Assembly (NCBI GenBank): GCA_947561395.2
Contig: OX387183.1
Location: 2,117,883-2,181,882, forward strand
Origin: Buxus sempervirens
Taxonomy: Eukaryota; Streptophyta; Magnoliopsida; Buxales; Buxaceae
Length of the DNA: 64,000 bases
Reading direction: 5' to 3'
Position 1 is the first letter of the stretch, and each line of letters opens with the position of its first letter. The notes beneath the pieces were generated by a model, which was not told the origin of the DNA, searched no databases, and was given only the letters and a program-made list of their open reading frames with translations. A program made the position numbers and the translations under genes. Shown here piece by piece: positions 2,646-56,769 of the stretch.

Positions 2646-3045
2646 TACGGGGTGCAATTCGGTTCGGTTTGGTCCGGGTCAGTTGAACCCAAGACCAAAC
2701 CAAATATATTGAACACTAACTCTAAACCGAACCGAACCGAAACAAAAACCGATCAAGTTAAACTGAAAACCGAACCAATACAAAACATAAAACCCTAGAA
2801 CCAAACCGAACCGATACAAAACATAAAACCCTAGAACCGAACCAAATGTTCAGTTCAGTTTTGGTCTTTGTTTCACTTTTATCTAGAGTAATTAATTAAA
2901 CATATATTTATTAAAATCGATTTAACCAACCATGCGCATTGGCTAGCCACACTATGACTTAGCCGTTAAATGGATCACCATGGGATGATAAACAAGAGAT
3001 GCGCCATCACCCAGAGATGCAAGTATTACTTGGCCAATGTGGGAC

Positions 3046-3140
3046 TAAGCTGTAGATGGATGTGCTTGCTGTTGAGAGAAGGGGTAGAACCTGGGCTTCA
3101 TAAGGGAAAAGGCCGTAGTTCTCGGAGTGGGAGTGGCAGC
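3046..3140 (-). pseudogene. Captured fragment of HD-Zip II (HAT14-like) terminal exon, 3' part
   Basis: By eye this 95 bp matches 55408-55502, the last coding stretch of the HAT14-like gene, with about six or seven mismatches. It encodes the equivalent of [17 protein letters not shown] followed by QAHPSTA, then a TAG stop slightly offset from the TGA of the intact gene. The homology continues at 6143 on the far side of the 3.0 kb insert. There is no homeodomain or zipper, so the fragment is non-functional as a factor. Confidence 0.9.
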
Positions 3141-4259
3141 TGTGCGCACCCGGACTTCGGTCGCAAGGCGAGGCGCATGCAAAACGATGCGTGCCTCGGG
3201 TTTTTGTTTGGAGTCGCCACTGCCTGACGGGGTGCAGGCAGACACCTGGGTGCCTAAGTTCTTCTACTAGGGCTTTTGGTCTGCGGCTTGGAGATTCTAA
3301 GTAGGGGCTCGGTTGCGGTCTGGGGAAGTCCGTAGACACCCCAATCCACCCCGTCAAGTGACGGGTCCCGTAGGTTTCCCTGGTTTGAGTCAATTCTGGT
3401 CTCTCACTCACCCGATTCCTATTCCAGCATGAAATTTGATTAAGTCTGGCGGGACCGCCAAAGTGGTGTGGGTCCCTTTACCTGATTTTATCTTTTTAAT
3501 TAGGATGATCTGGGTCTGGTGGGGTGGGCCCCATTGGAAGGCCCACGGTATCCCTTGGTGGACCAAGTGTGGCCCGCATGTTCCTTGGTGGGCCAAGTGT
3601 GGCCCTTTGGACTTTGGCTCACTTTGAATTGATTTTATTTTAGAGTTTAGATTTGATTATTTAGTGATTTCCATGCAAAGTGGGTCGGATTGCATTTCGG
3701 GCCCCTGGGTGGGCCCCACAGTTGGTTGCCAAGTGGTTTTGATTATTTTGCTTATTTGTGCCAAAATGTCCAAGTGTTGGGCTTGGGGCCTTTTACCTGG
3801 GCTTGGGCTTGAAAACCCAAGACTTCCTGAGTTGGGGTTTTTGAAACCCTAAGTTGGTTGGGTTCGTGGGCTTAGTGGGCCCGATAGGCCCTACCCGTGG
3901 TCTCGGCCAAACCACATCCTACTTTAATCATGCATGGCCCAATTAGGGCTTGGGTGGGCCTCAAGTGGTTTGACCCACTCAAATCTTTTATTATCTTACC
4001 TAAGCAAAATGAATTGGTCGGGCTTGGTGGGCCCCGTTGGAAGGCCCACTGGAAACCAAGTTGGACCAAGGGTCCAAGCCCCATGTTGGGTTTCCGGGTG
4101 ACCTGGAAACCCTATTGGTTCATCCGGTTCGGTTTGGAAATAAAACCCACATTCAACAATAATCACATAAGAAAATACACAAGATTGACACTCTATCAAG
4201 AAAAATTGGCTCATTGTGTTTTTGGAATTTTTCAAAAATATATCAATTCGTCATGTTTT

Positions 4260-4560
4260 AGGGGTAGGCGCCGACCTCAGGTAGTAGGCGCGAGGTCGGC
4301 GCGAAATGGGCGGATCGAAAACAGCGAAAAAACACGAAAACTGGAGTGGGCGCGAGGTGGGCGCTAGGTGGGCGCGAGCTAGGCGCCAGGTGGGCGCGAG
4401 CTCGGCGCCAAGTGGGCGCGAGCTAGGCGCCAGGTGGGCGCGAGCTCAGCGCACCCAAAGAAGTGGGTGCGAGGTGGGCGCGAGCTCGGCGCGAAGTGGG
4501 CGGACCCAAGCTAGGTGAGCGCGAGCTCAGCACGAGGTGAGCGCGAGCTCAGCGCAGACC
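4260..4560. repeat. GC-rich minisatellite inside the LTR-like insert
   Basis: Repeats of roughly 10-20 bp built on GGTGGGCGCGAGCTCGGCGC variants, strikingly GC-rich in an AT-rich window. The open frame through it (4306-4518) is an Arg/Ala/Gly repeat artefact. Confidence 0.85.
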
Positions 4561-5655
4561 CTGACTCTCTGTTTTTTCTCTCCAAACTCCAATTCCGACT
4601 GGTTTTTAGGGTTTTTTGGTCTCTGTAACTGATTTCTGGGGATCGTTAGACTCCCAGAAGACACCTGAACCCACTTCAAAATTAATCTAACCTAACTTGT
4701 GAGAATCAAATCTCTTTGCAAACCTATGAGCCCGAAAACCAAACACTAACAGAACATGCATTAACATAACATGAATAATCAAGAAGGGAACCAAGGGCTT
4801 TATCGGGATACAACAGAGATGGATAACTCATGGGGGAACATGCTCCCCCTTCGAATCAATCAAGCACAAACAGCAAATAAATTAGCACACCCAGGAGACA
4901 CCCTAGTCATGCTTGAAAGCTTGAAATGAGCTCATTTATTAAACATGGAACATTACCTTGTTTTAATCCCTTGCAGGGTATGCCGGAGGGTTCCTTGGAG
5001 CGCACGAGCAGTCGCTGGAGCACTACCTCTCCTCACCAACTGGTCGTCTTCTTGGTCTCACCCACTGGTCGTCTTCTCGGTTGTGAGGTAATCGGAGAGG
5101 AAGAAGGGAGGGTTCTTTTAACTCAGGCCAAGCAAGGAGGACTAGTTCTCCGTGGGGAGACCCAACCCTGGAGAGAACCAGGGAGTGAGAACTCTCTGCC
5201 CCGGAAAGAATTTCGCCAGAGACGAAAGCCGGCCCCTAAAATCCCGAACCCCAAAGCTCTCCAACGAAAATTTTTCCAACCCCCTGGAAATGAAACCTTG
5301 CGCGGCTTTTATAGAAGAGGACAGAGGGTATCCGCCGAGTTTGGCGCCCACCTCAAGGTGAGCGCATACCCCCTGCCACGTTCGCGCAAGCGACCGAATG
5401 ATTAAAAAACCATTAATGCGGCCGCTCGTTTGGTCGGAAAATCCGAATTTTCGGATTTAGTCCCTGGTTATTTTCAATTTAATCCGATATTCTTGGATTT
5501 TTACAGATTTAGTCCCTGGGATATTTTGAATGTTTGGATATTTATGGATTTGATCCCCGAGATATTTTCCTGCGCAACTCGCCACGTGTGCAGCTCTCTG
5601 CCACGTGCGTAGTTTGCCGGTTTTGCTGCTCGGGAATTTTGTCGGCTCATATTTT

Positions 5656-6096
5656 CTTCATCCGGGCTCCGATCTGGGCAAACTCAGTGGCGTTAGAATC
5701 GTATCGGAGCCCCCTGTCCCATGACCTAGAGGTAAGCACCTGGATCGGATTTTGGCAGAAAGTCAACTTTTGGCTTCGCCCAAGTTTGACCGCCCGCAGA
5801 ACCTTCATCCGGACTCCGATTCCTGCAAACTCAGTTGCGTTGGAATCGTGTCGAGATTCTCTATCCAATGGTATAAAGCAAGGCCTCTGGATCGGATTTT
5901 GGCAGAAAGTCAACTTTTGGCTTCGCCCAAGTTTGACTGCCCGCAGAACCTTCATCCAGACTCCGATTCCTACAAACTCAGTTGCGTTGGAATCGTGTCG
6001 AGATTCTCTATCCAATGATATTAAGCAAGGTGGCCAAATATCACTTAATCAAAAAGTCAACTTTTTGTCCCCTCGGGGTTTGACTTTCTGCTAAGG
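5656..6096. repeat. Three tandem copies of a 147 bp unit
   Basis: Units start at 5656, 5803 and 5950, each opening cttcatcc. The first two share a long block ending in ttggcttcgcccaagtttga; the third diverges in its second half. The spacing is exactly 147 bp both times. The array lies at the downstream end of the LTR-like insert. The overlapping open frames on both strands are repeat artefacts. Confidence 0.9.
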
Positions 6097-6142
6097 TTTT
6101 CATTTTCAGCAATTCCAGGGATGCAAAAATAAGGTGCTTACA

Positions 6143-6209
6143 ACAGCATCAGCGTTGATGGTGGTGGTGGTGGCAGAGGCGGACAGTTAGGTGGTGGAAT
6201 TGGTGGCGA
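6143..6209 (-). pseudogene. Captured HD-Zip II fragment, upstream part (continues 3046-3140)
   Basis: This stretch matches about 55498-55564 of the HAT14-like terminal exon, including the GTGGTGGTGGTGG run and gaattggtggcga. With 3046-3140 it rebuilds about 160 bp of that exon. Homology stops at 6209. The next 140 bp are unassigned. Confidence 0.85.
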
Positions 6210-6349
6210 GCAATGAACACGGTTCATTGAGATTGAGATTACAATGACCACACGATCACATAGAAGCAGAGCAAACCAGTAAAATACAATACTCAAGATA
6301 AGGAGAGATCTATGGCTGACGGATTTTGAGAAAGGCGTGTAAGATAAGG

Positions 6350-7034
6350 AGAGATCATTGAAGGAAGAGAGACGAAAATCCTGACATATTCTCCTTAGCT
6401 TTCATGATCTTTTGGTATTTTCTTCTTCTGGGAGATTCAAACAAGTTAAAGGAGATCTCTGTAAGTTATGAAGAGTCCGATTTAGAGGAAATTTTATTGG
6501 GATTGTCTGGATTCTAGTTTGAGTTGGGTGTTGTTTCTTTGCTTCTTTTGGCAGATAGGAAACTACGAAGTTGAATCTGCTTGGGATTTTAGCCGTGTTT
6601 GATGAATCTTTTTTTGTTTTTTCGGTTTGTACTATTTTAGCTTTTGAAAGCTAGTTCGGCTAGTGTAATTAAGGTATTTCTAAGACTGTGGGAGATTCCC
6701 AGTTTGTTTCTTTGAATTTAGATGCAAATGATGTCTGGAGAAGGGCTTTCAATTCCCTCTACAATTAGAGGGTTTTCTCTCAAGAACCTAATTCAGGCCC
6801 TAACCCTAACCAGAATAGTACTAATCCAGTGGCGAAGAAGAAGAGAATCCTACCGGGAACACCAGGCAAGAAAATTTCATCTTCTTAATTTTTTTATACT
6901 TCGTACCCTTTTTTTTTGGATTTTGCTGTTGCTTCTGTTCCGAAGCCCTTGGTTTCTTAATGTGGTTTCACGTTTTTGCAGATCCGGATGCGAAGGTGAT
7001 TGCTCTATCCCCAAAACTCTCATGGCAACAAACA
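6350..7034 (+). pseudogene. Captured 5' part of an INDETERMINATE-DOMAIN (IDD/BIRD) C2H2 zinc-finger gene
   Basis: From 6722 the frame reads MQMMSGEGLSIPSTIRGF. After a 2 bp frameshift it continues QEPNSGPNPNQNSTNPVAKK then KRILPGTP. An intron follows (from about 6863, with a GC-type donor) ending at 6981. The next exon reads DPDAKVIALSPKTLMATN. In IDD proteins this block directly precedes the first zinc finger. Here homology stops at about 7034, before any finger. 6350-6721 looks like the 5' leader with a possible leader intron. Retained introns show genomic rather than mRNA capture. Confidence 0.9.
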
Positions 7035-7040
7035 TATTCT

Positions 7041-7362
7041 ATGGTTGTAGCCGTAATGGGTGCTCGAGCTTTTGAGTACCTGGCGACGAGCACAGCATCC
7101 TTTGACTGTTTGTTAATGGCTGTTGGGGGGATGAGAATCTTCAAGACAAGATCTATGCCCTTGTGGAAGGTGCAGAACCTTCGAATTTCACATGGAATTA
7201 TGCCATTTTCTAGCAGATTTCTAAGTCTAAATCTGGGGATTTCATTCTTGGTTGGGGGGGATGGGCTTTGCAGAGAGCCAAAGGAAGGGGAAGAAACTGA
7301 AGCTAAGTAGCGTGCCGAAGATGAAACCAACAGAAGATGAGGAAGAGGGTCCTTCAGAAGCT
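7041..7362 (+). pseudogene. Captured N-terminal bHLH-MYC_N fragment (JAM/bHLH13/17-like)
   Basis: Starting at 7041 the plus strand reads MVVAVMGARAFEYLATSTAS. After a frameshift in a G run near 7127 it reads DENLQDKIYALVEG, then PSNFTWNYAIF, a TAG stop, QISKSKSGDFILGW, a second G-run frameshift, and DGLCREPKEGEETEAK followed by TAG, ending near RKRVLQK. This is the MYC/JAM-type bHLH N-terminal domain, which in the family contacts JAZ/MED25 partners. At least two frameshifts and several stops make it a pseudogene. It abuts the IDD fragment on the left, out of frame, and the element's right arm at 7363. Confidence 0.9.
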
Positions 7363-7582
7363 AATTCGGTTCTGTTTCGGTTCGGTTCGGTCTTGATAAA
7401 TATACTAATTCGGTTCGGTTCGGTTTAACTGAACATCTAATCCAAAACCAAACTGATCTAATTTGGGTTAGTGTTTTATAAACCAAAATCGAACCGAACT
7501 TAAAAAAAACCGAACCAAACCGAACCGAAGTCGGTTTGGTTCGGGTTAGTTTCGGGTTTACCCAGACCGAGTTGCAGCCCTA

Positions 7583-8199: not shown

Positions 8200-8557
8200 G
8201 GGGAAATTGGTTTTTAGTGATGCTTTTTAAAAAAAAATCAGTTTCAGTCGGCCAATTCTTAATAATTGACTTTTAGTGATACTTTTTTAATATAATTGAT
8301 AATTGGTGTCATTTTACTGTTCTTTAAGAATTTCTTCCTAAAATGCCCTCAAAAGATTTAAAAACCTTTTCATTCATTTTGTTACAAGTGTAGTTTGCAG
8401 GTCTTTTTGAGGGCATTTTCGGAAAACTTTTTAATGAATAGTAAAATGACATTGATTCTCAATTATATAAAAAAGTATCACTAAAAACCAATTACCAAGA
8501 ATTAGCTGATTGAATTTGAATTATTTGGAAAAAGCATCACTAAAAACCAATTTTTCC
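8200..8557. mobile_element. Mutator-like foldback MITE, copy 1 (358 bp)
   Basis: Perfect 10 bp target duplication tacataaaat at 8190-8199 and 8558-8567. The termini are near-identical inverted repeats containing ATTGGTTTTTAGTGATGC, and the arms continue to pair far inward (foldback). No coding. A 9-11 bp target duplication is characteristic of Mutator-like elements. A longer relative lies at 11698-12838. Confidence 0.9.
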
Positions 8558-21212: not shown

Positions 21213-21957
21213 TAGGGTTACAATTCAGTGCGGTTTGGTTCGGGTTGGCCTCAATCTAAGATCAAACCAAGGTTACTGATGGTTGGCTCAAAACCGAACC
21301 GAACCGACCTTAGAACTGAAATACCCAAACTAAAAACCGAATCGATTATTTAAAGAAAACCCATAACCCAACCCAAACCGAATCGAATTGCAAAGTTCGG
21401 TTTGGGTCATTTTCCCATACTTAAAACTTGTTATCAAGATAGAGATTTCCACTTTTGCCAAAAAAATACACTCAGCAAATATAAAAGGATCATCACTTAT
21501 ATGCGGTCTAATCCCTTAAGTAGTTCATATGCATACATAAGATGGAGCAAAGAGCTTAGAATCCCAAGTCATATGTTAATTGTTTTGGATCGTACTTTTG
21601 AGCTCATGAATCAATTTAATAATTAACTACAAAGATTTATAAAATAATAATCTTATTCATTATTTTATAACTTATAATTTATAAGTTATATTTTATTATT
21701 ACAACTTATTGTATATTTTATATATATTATCATATTTCAGCTTGGTTTGGTTCGGTTTTACACTTAAGAAATTCAGTTTGGTTTTCGGTTCGGTTTTGTT
21801 AACTAGAGCCTTCAACCCAAAACCAAACCAAATAAATTCGGTTCTCTATTTTTAGAACCAGAACCTACCCAAAGACTATATAACCCAAACCAAACCGACC
21901 TAAAGTCGGGTTGGACCAGTTCGGTATCGGTTTTAACCAACTCAAGTTGCAGCCCTA
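21213..21957. mobile_element. Complete GGTTCGG-family TIR element (745 bp)
   Basis: Ends are TAGGGTTACAATTCAG and, reverse-complemented, TAGGGCTGCAACTTGAG. Arms are dense in GGTTTGG/CCAAACC blocks around an AT-rich middle. The flanks share tacacac (a degenerate, slightly offset duplication). This copy shows the left-half/right-half layout used to interpret 2646-7582. Smaller relatives lie at 41680-42010 and 42315-42651. Confidence 0.75.
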
Positions 21958-41679: not shown

Positions 41680-41846
41680 GTTGAAATATAGAATCAACTA
41701 ACCCAAACCAATTTTGGCTTGAGTTTTAGAGCCTATGGTTTGGTTTTGGTTTTAAAATTTGTACATCGAATTAGTTTTGATTCAGTTTTGGGTTGATGTT
41801 TTGATTAAAAATTGAACCAAATCCAATATATATATATATATATATC

Positions 41847-41877
<31 letters not shown>

Positions 41878-42010
41878 GTTTAGTTTTCTGGATAGAATTA
41901 TCAGTTGATTTAGTTCTCAATTCAATTTTTTTGGTTTAGATTAACCGCCATAAACCTTGGTTTGATCTTGGGTTAATGTTAGTCCATATCAAACTAAACC
42001 GAGTTGCACT
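41680..42010. mobile_element. Diverged GGTTCGG-family element with AT/ATGT microsatellite
   Basis: Left TCCAACTTGGTTCGGTTG-type arm and right arm ending CCGAGTTGCACTCG, the mirror layout seen in the family. The centre holds an (AT)n(ATGT)n microsatellite at 41826-41878. Ends are blurred. Confidence 0.55.
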
Positions 42011-42314
42011 CGTGGCAGGGCCATGACCCTCCAAGTCTTTTTTAAATGTTATTATTATACGACAAATTAAAATAGATTGTTATTTTTATTAAATAATAAA
42101 TAAATAAGATGAGGGGCTTTTTGAAATTTACCCTCCTCCGCTTAACGGTTCCAGAAGATGACGTCGCGTCTCCGCTCCGTACAGACCAACGCGGAAATAG
42201 CCAATAACCGGTAAAAGGAAGATATGCGCGTGATTTGGGGACGAAAAAACTTGCGAAAACGTTAAAAGGGCATTGATTCATCGGAAAACACTCGAAACCA
42301 CAGATTTGCCACTG

Positions 42315-42651
42315 TTAGAATCGGGCGTGTAATTCGGTCGGGTTGGTTTGGTTTTTGTGTCAAACCTAAACGAAACCGAATTATGTTGATTCAAATCAAA
42401 AACCGAATTTAAGCTTAAGATTTTAAAACGATTTTTCTATATTTGGTTTCTTAAATGTATGGTTCGTTTCTTTTTGCAAATTTTCTATATATTTTGGTTT
42501 TCAGTTCAATTCAGATTTTTAAACACATAAACCGTAAACATAGTCAAACTAATTCGGTTTGTAGTTTTTCAAACCGAAACCAAACCAAACCAATTATTTT
42601 TGGTTTGATTCAATTGGTTTTTGGTTTAAGCTGAACCAATTGACACCCCTA
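42315..42651. mobile_element. Small GGTTCGG-family TIR element (~337 bp)
   Basis: It starts GGGCGTGTAATTCGGTCGGG; its right end reverse-complements to TAGGGGTGTCAATTGG. GGTTTGG/CCAAACC arms flank an AT-rich centre. No clear target duplication. Confidence 0.65.
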
Positions 42652-55402: not shown

Positions 55403-56769
55403 TCATGAAGCTGCAGATGGATGTGCCTGGGGTTGAGAGAAGGGGTAGAACCTGGGCTTCATAAGGGAAAAGGCAGTAGTTCTCGGAGCGGGAGTGGCAG
55501 CGTCAGCGTTGATGGTGGTGGTGGTGGCGGAGGTGGAAGGTTTGGTGGTGGAATTGGTGGCGACGCGCTCACAAGAGGGACACATGGTAAGAGTGGTGGC
55601 GGGGAGTTGCATGTAGAAAGGATGGGATGTCTTTAAAGCCCTTAGTTCCTGCAACTCCTTCTGCAGTCTCCTGTTCTCTTCCGTCAGTGTCTCGCAGCAT
55701 TTCTTCAAATATTCGCAATCCACCTCAGTTTGTTTCAGCTTTGTTCTGTAATTATTTGAACAATCATCCCATCAATCAAATTCTATTGAAAACCATTTCC
55801 AAATGAGAAGATTAAATGAATAAAAAAGATACCTTGCTCTTCGGTTCTGAAACCAGACCTCAACCTGGCGAGGACGGAGATTAAGCTGTTTTGCAAGAGC
55901 GAGCTTTTGTTTCTGCACGTTTCAGGAGACAAAGGAGTCAGATATGAGATTGTTTTAGTCCTCTCTCACTCTCTCTCTCTCTCATGGTTTTTTCACTTAC
56001 CGGGTTAAGGGTATTGTGCTCTTTGAAGCTTTCTTCAAGGAAGGCCGACTGCTCTTTAGAGAGTCTGAGTTTCTTCCTTGTAAGACCATTCTCTTCCTCG
56101 TCACTCGCTCTCGAAGATGCTCTCTCCGCATCAATTTCGATTCCAGCAGTTTCTAAATCTCTCTTGTTTCCACTTCCATGTCGGCCTCTATAAATGGAGA
56201 AATCCATCTGAAAAGAAGAAACCGTACTGTTTGGAGAAGAAACCGCCGCACCGTCATCAATCTCCTCGGCCGACGGCAACCGATTCACGTCGAACCCTCT
56301 CGCCGGTAGCCCCAAAAGTCCCGACGAACCCGCATCAGAACTCCCTTTAACAAACGACGCGAAATAAACCAAATAAGCAAAAAACTCACATCGTAAAAGC
56401 CATGAAATCAAATCCAAAGAAGAAGAAGGGGCTTTGACAATCTGGGTATTTACCATTTTCGGTCGGCCATGAAAAACCAATCTGAGAAGAAGCTGGATAT
56501 CGCGGAACAGGCACGAGAGGAAGAAGATCAAGCTGAACAGGCCGATCTGCAGAAGCCCTTTTCTCTTCTTCCCTTTCATCTCCATCTCCTATTCCATTAA
56601 CCTTTCCTTCTCCTCCTCCATCCTCATCTCCCTCCTCTTTCTCTCTCTGATTCAACCCAACCACTCCCAAACCCATGCAAAAACCTAAACCATCGTTATT
56701 GGCCTTGCGATTCTTCTCTACGAACCCAAGTGGCCTCGAAGCATCTCCCAAACTTAATCCCAAGTCCAT
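55403..56769 (-). CDS. HAT14: Class II HD-Zip transcription repressor, HAT14-like, four exons, 360 residues
   Basis: Exons on the minus strand: 56769-56454, 56344-56001, 55912-55833, 55745-55403; all joins keep frame. The start MDLGLSLGD contains an LxLxL (EAR) repressor motif. The middle is acidic and Ser-rich. The homeodomain spans about 193-252 ([17 protein letters not shown] ... [13 protein letters not shown]), split by an intron at NP|KQK and by another in the Arg codon ending NRRAR. The leucine zipper follows ([11 protein letters not shown]...ENRRLQ). CPSCE at 302-306 is the class II redox motif. The Met start at 56769 is preferred to 56811 because all family members begin at this motif. 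Class II HD-Zips act in shade and auxin responses and bind CAAT(C/G)ATTG. A broken copy of exon 4 lies at 3046-3140/6143-6209. Confidence 0.96.

Follow-up and report, generated by a model that had tools for sequence, protein, structure and literature searches.

A probable Pack-hAT element of Buxus sempervirens with fragments of three transcription-factor genes

How do pieces of three transcription-factor genes come to lie between the two ends of one transposon? The question is raised by positions 2646 to 7582 of a 64,000-nucleotide stretch of the Buxus sempervirens genome (C3:2117883-2181882; here called the window), where an earlier note had placed the end of an HD-Zip gene, the start of an IDD zinc-finger gene with its intron, and the N-terminal domain of a bHLH-MYC gene between two matching arms that contain GGTTCGG. 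This region is a single nonautonomous hAT element, which runs from TACGGGGTGCAATTCGG at position 2646 to GAGTTGCAGCCCTA at position 7582. We consider it to be a Pack-hAT element in which fragments of three unlinked host genes are joined end to end, presumably captured through a break and template switching (probability of about 0.85). The genome searched comprised 676.5 Mb, and the genome match counts given below are lower bounds. In window positions, the element consists of the following parts.

2646 to 3051, plus strand: hAT left end, with the terminal inverted repeat (TIR) TACGGGGTGCAATTCGG, GGTTCGG subterminal repeats, and backbone up to the half-palindrome GTGGGACTAAGCT

3047 to 3140, minus strand: 3' end of an HD-Zip gene, part 1 (antisense); donor at window 55408 to 55501, minus strand; its initial AAGCT is a 5-base microhomology with the backbone

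3141 to 6142, no strand assigned: later insertion of a high-copy repeat with ends like those of a long terminal repeat (LTR), TGTGCGCACC...GGTGCTTACA; 5-bp flanks GCAGC and ACAGC, with one mismatch

6143 to 6209, minus strand: HD-Zip piece, part 2 (antisense); donor at window 55504 to 55563

6210 to 6239, no strand assigned: filler of 30 bp between the HD-Zip and IDD pieces, with a terminal GAGATTGAGATTA that is also found ~60 bp downstream in the IDD donor

6240 to 7039, plus strand: 5' part of an IDD (BIRD) zinc-finger gene; donor at C3:55068403-55069237; carries frameshifts

About 7040 to 7362, plus strand: fragment of a bHLH-MYC N-terminal domain; donor at C9:48015808-48016144; three indels common to the other copies, plus stops

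7363 to 7582, plus strand: hAT right end, ending in GAGTTGCAGCCCTA

Each of the three gene pieces named in the earlier note matches a donor at the DNA level. The HD-Zip gene end is present as described there; its antisense orientation relative to the IDD and bHLH pieces and its splitting by the insertion at 3141 to 6142 had been overlooked. The IDD piece comprises a 5' untranslated region (UTR) with an apparent intron (~6461 to 6554), exon 1, an intron, and the opening codons of exon 2. Its joint with the bHLH piece (7039-7040) is indeed out of frame, the frames differing on the two sides, and the bHLH piece does stop where the right arm starts (7362 and 7363). The GGTTCGG motif occurs 25 times in the window versus 2.97 times expected, a count reached in 0 of 100 shuffles. 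The arms also match, at 67 to 69%, the two ends of another element (21213 to 21957, plus strand), which has termini of this kind but is more diverged. The left end up to the cargo joint is common to the relatives described below, and the left TIR of the window copy, TACGGGGTGCAATTCGG, has one C more than the TAGGGGTGCAACTCGG of those relatives. The LTR-type insertion makes up 61% of the element span, and its first 260 bp have many genome matches (93 to 97% identity). An array of an 11-bp GC-rich unit (4284 to 4558) and three 147-bp repeats (5635 to 6075) lie within this insertion.

The composite was identified with the same joints at three places on three contigs (C3, C1, and C6), so that the search proposed in the earlier note for copies with the same arms and cargo yielded two more. 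The C1 copy (C1:47338624-47340566; 1,943 bp) has both ends and all three pieces, lacks the LTR-type insertion, and is flanked on both sides by a perfect 8-bp target duplication, CTTGGAAC. Its TIRs, TAGGGGTGCAACTC and TAGGGCTGCAACTC, are short and similar to those of the relatives; the ends, the three gene pieces, and the filler account for all of it, and it has no transposase gene of its own. With both of the same ends and the full cargo inside one target duplication, this copy identifies the arms as the two ends of one element, as the earlier note had taken them to be, and rules out two independent elements. When the flanks of the C1 copy were joined with one copy of the duplication removed, all 40 places scored (619 candidates) were uninterrupted across the joint, at 82 to 85%; in the example aligned (L073), the joint is gap-free, and L074 was set aside after a poor local alignment on the strand supplied. 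The joined flanks of a relative, L045, match the window repeat at 5508 to 5883 across the joint, providing a second empty site. In the C6 copy, a different insert interrupts the same cargo, and the flanks are GTAGAGAG and GTAGAGAG. When the cargo was used as the query, 11 matches were obtained: four for the three element copies (the split C6 copy accounts for two), three for the donors, and four for more distant paralogues. Among these, the pieces lie side by side only inside the arms, never adjacent without them. The composite itself has transposed. Repeats related to window 3141 to 6142 also occur around L045 and within the C6 insert.

An intact donor was identified for each of the three pieces; that of the HD-Zip piece lies inside the window, 48 kb from the element. 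This HD-Zip gene (55406 to 56588, minus strand), the donor or its closest paralogue, has the Pfam domains HD-ZIP_N and HALZ, a combination which we take to mark class II. Window 3047 to 3140 is 93.6% identical to 55408 to 55501, and 6150 to 6209 is 91.7% identical to 55504 to 55563. The IDD donor has an open finger region (PF22996 and PF22995), and the bHLH donor has an open frame with bHLH-MYC_N (PF14215), HLH, and ACT-like domains. The C1 copy is 95.5%, 94.3%, and 94.7% identical to the HD-Zip, IDD, and bHLH donors, respectively. The coding intron of the IDD donor (L022) apparently starts with GC (CCAG|GCAAG) and not GT, as does that of the window copy.

The 8-bp target duplication, together with the ends, places the element in the hAT superfamily. 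The duplication test covered 11 relatives with both ends available, members with only one end in the sequence examined being left out, and seven of the 11 have a perfect 8-bp duplication: L035 (AGAATACC), L036 (CCTGGAAC), L037 (GTATGCAT), L038 (GTGGGACC), L040 (GGTGGAAC), L042 (GTCTCTAC), and L044 (CTACGCAC). The duplication of L045 has one mismatch and that of L046 has two (GTAGCGTG and GTAGTGCG); no 8-bp duplication was found at the ends of L047 and L050. In L037 and L040, the right end terminates in G rather than A. A 28-base terminus pattern, TAGGGGTGCAACTCGGTTCGGTTTGGTC, had 549 and 527 genome matches with up to three mismatches, whereas its reversed control had 0.

A search for the hAT dimerisation domain (PF05699) scored 150 places of 2045 candidates. 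One of the loci, L071 (C12:247600-252000), has a 696-amino-acid open frame with this domain and candidate ends beginning TAGGCATGAGC and TAGGGGTGCGC (4 of 12 bases mismatched) with 8-bp flanks, CCAACCAT; the script proposed three candidate end pairs, and the pair with TAG ends was taken. For L072, the other transposase locus inspected, the script gave no ends. Many places share 696-amino-acid hAT open frames with an equal dimerisation-domain score, which suggests that an autonomous hAT family with GC-rich subterminal repeats has been active recently.

Relatives of the element carry different host-gene cargoes between GGTTCGG ends of the same hAT family. Three copies of ~1.42 kb (L035, L038, and L045) contain an NLR and PPR chimera, in which 227 bp match an NLR gene (NB-ARC, LRR) of a C15 cluster and 586 bp match, in antisense, a PPR gene on C4. 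L034 and L039 contain ~500 bp that match C21:33041-33544, which overlaps a DUF7804 gene, as well as a high-copy repeat, and L041 contains NLR and other pieces. Five others (L036, L037, L040, L042, and L044; 877 to 924 bp) are mutually alike throughout. Nearly the whole interior of L041 is matched by C15:3404729-3408313 in two pieces (query 1 to 1070 and 1052 to 1310), which is perhaps a further, interrupted copy of L041 or its source. Window 41737 to 42589 contains additional matches to the GGTTCGG arms, on both strands, which are perhaps other family members.

The joints point to how the pieces may have been acquired. The left end is bordered on its inner side by an imperfect palindrome of ~22 bp (consensus GTGGGACTAAGCTTAGTCCCAC), recognised by eye in 13 of 20 rows compared. 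In the lineage of the three transcription-factor copies, the palindrome ends at its centre, where the HD-Zip piece starts, and AAGCT, a microhomology of 5 bp, is common to the backbone and the HD-Zip piece. At the NLR/PPR joint, the microhomology is likewise 5 bp long (ATCGA), and at the IDD/bHLH joint it is 1 bp; microhomology of at least 5 bp at a random joint has a probability of 0.0046 in a simple simulation. The 30-bp filler may be partly templated: its 13-nucleotide match to the IDD donor, GAGATTGAGATTA, is at a length that none of 2000 mononucleotide shuffles reached within the captured span. A family member would have broken at the centre of the subterminal palindrome GTGGGACTAAGCTTAGTCCCAC, and its repair would have drawn on ectopic templates, which were copied with short microhomology (AAGCT at the switch to the HD-Zip gene) and filler. 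A hAT transposase supplied in trans would then have moved the finished composite. We infer that the joints suit break repair by template switching better than the fusion of neighbouring insertions.

A further step, that the family gains genes recurrently through a built-in weak point, the centre of the ~22-bp palindrome breaking and microhomology leading template switching between unlinked genes, is a tentative proposal that we would sooner bet against. If true, this would be a recurrent gene-collecting element, with three regulatory genes in one lineage and an NLR and a PPR gene in another. Among the relatives measured, L047 (20 bp) and L034 (18 bp) have the longest perfect palindrome cores; L034, L038, L039, L047, and L048 reach 22 bp if one mismatched pair is allowed. 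A perfect 22-bp palindrome was rejected; the composite string is absent from the genome, and the versions in the relatives are imperfect. L041, L043, and L044 are broken inside the palindrome, and L050 differs.

Several observations weigh against the account given above or against its palindrome part. The exact 22-bp consensus has 0 occurrences genome-wide, an extra A lies beside the palindrome centre in L036, L037, L040, and L042, the cargo of L035, L038, and L045 begins beyond the palindrome, and the palindrome model has one central joint as support. The 13-mer of the filler is itself a repetitive sequence, and the bHLH locus, too, contains a 12-mer of the filler. A clean 8-bp duplication was looked for at the flanks of the window copy, and none was found; that of the C6 copy is weak evidence because it sits within a short local tandem repeat. 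Finally, a comparison of 100 listed of the 1,076 termini with 148 transposase places (of the 150 scored, two on small contigs having been left out) revealed no autonomous element bearing GGTTCGG ends, the nearest listed terminus being 3.45 kb from a transposase place.

Where the capture took place bears on the first alternative, namely, that it occurred in situ, at or near the window locus, with the window copy as the founder and the C1 and C6 copies as daughters. The HD-Zip donor lies 48 kb from the window copy, and by simple arithmetic the chance of such proximity is ~0.0004 (any of the three copies, given the donor) or 0.0013 over three donors. A local hop would, however, produce equal proximity, and the window copy is without a clean target duplication. 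Over the first 300 bp of the IDD piece, divergence is 3.0 to 3.7% among the copies and 6.1 to 7.1% between the copies and the donor, the pattern that common descent from a single capture would give. Since the distances among the three copies are similar, no founder is indicated, and we regard an in situ origin as possible but doubtful.

Second, the cargo could have been acquired by fusion, in which two neighbouring hAT insertions are mobilised together with the chromosomal DNA that they flank, repeated for each gene. Such a model has been published for Pack-TYPE elements, including hAT, and is favoured by Gisby and Catoni 2022 (PMC8903248). The arrangement that it requires exists in this genome, where two L034-type elements lie in the same orientation at C3:10662576-10667582 with their left ends ~3.2 kb apart. 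The three donors, however, are on two contigs, two on C3 ~53 Mb apart and one on C9, and the pieces are only ~0.15 to 0.8 kb long, have mixed orientations, and are joined with filler at one joint. No remnants of hAT ends were found between the pieces in the C1 copy. Fusion is, on this evidence, unlikely, and break repair with template switching remains our preferred explanation.

Third, the composite might work as a chimeric gene with a regulatory role, or selection might have favoured it as a source of small RNAs that control the donors; we consider this quite improbable. The IDD 5' UTR is retained in the same sense as the bHLH piece, but the HD-Zip piece is antisense and all three copies have disabling frameshifts, with further damage specific to each copy. 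In the bHLH piece, three indels are common to all copies: the change of GGGAGGGATG to GGGGGGATG, the gain of a G in the GGTTGGGGGG run, and the loss of a base at AAGCCCAAC. In IDD exon 2, one C is missing from CCCCC in the C1 and window copies, and the C6 copy has the same frame change. Because these frame-breaking indels are common to the three copies, the coding frame of the cargo was lost before the composite spread, and a chimeric coding gene is ruled out. Copy-specific substitutions dominate (19 of 25 columns in the part of the IDD piece compared and 21 of 27 in the bHLH piece). Most likely, the cargo does not act through a protein; small RNAs that match the donors might have an effect. 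For annotation, dead transcription-factor or NLR pieces inside such elements could be called genes.

The weakest alternative, a Mutator-like (Pack-MULE) or CACTA element rather than hAT, is very improbable, since, although Pack-MULEs are the best-known carriers of several genes, the ends begin with TAGGG, the C1 copy and seven of 11 relatives have an 8-bp duplication, and L071, with its hAT dimerisation domain, has related candidate ends with 8-bp flanks. Pack-MULEs have 9-bp duplications and long TIRs, and Helitrons have neither TIRs nor target duplications; the duplications seen here are 8 bp, and both TIRs and the 8-bp duplication are present.

Two other features neighbour the element. An open reading frame on the minus strand (1846 to 2241) reads away from it, with the first ATG ~450 bp from the left end; its product presumably resembles thioredoxin, and the Pfam search gave no match to the fragment. 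An inverted-repeat element at 8204 to 8553, with 86-nucleotide arms that are 85% complementary, is probably another small transposon.

Among known systems, the Pack-MULEs of Jiang et al. 2004, a work cited in PMC13317346, are reported to capture and amplify fragments of one or several genes, mostly as pseudogenes. They share capture and amplification with the present element and differ from it in superfamily (Mutator), in their long TIRs, and in their 9-bp duplications. Literature searches turned up no account of a hAT element that combines pieces of three transcription-factor genes. Pack-hAT is a known kind of element, rarely named in the literature searched. The passages seen on cut-and-paste transduplication in grapevine (PMC2528002) describe gene fragments inside elements of several superfamilies and do not include a hAT composite of three transcription-factor genes. 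The frog element Pack-hAT-N8_XT (PMC8277862) is similar in being a multicopy hAT element with captured gene DNA and distinct duplications, but it has one 291-bp piece of one gene, and neither the word hairpin nor the word palindrome appears in the main text of the article. For animal Pack-TIRs, the same source argues for microhomology-guided template switching at breaks within the element and presents gap-filling and FoSTeST models (PMC8277862).

The closest counterparts are the Pack-hAT elements of maize and rice (PMC8903248). These too are nonautonomous, with hAT-type ends, an 8-bp duplication, and host gene fragments, and Pack-TYPE elements with genic DNA from several loci have been reported, those of maize often containing more than one locus (PMC8903248). 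The suggestion in the earlier note that such an element was undescribed was therefore too strong, and because multilocus Pack-TYPE elements are known, the element with three transcription-factor genes belongs to a known kind. It differs from the maize and rice elements described there in that three regulatory-gene pieces are present in one unit, in another plant, with joints that can be read base by base. The joints are unusually readable, and the family provides several captures with identified donors in one genome, so that fusion of neighbouring insertions, gap filling, and template switching can be compared.

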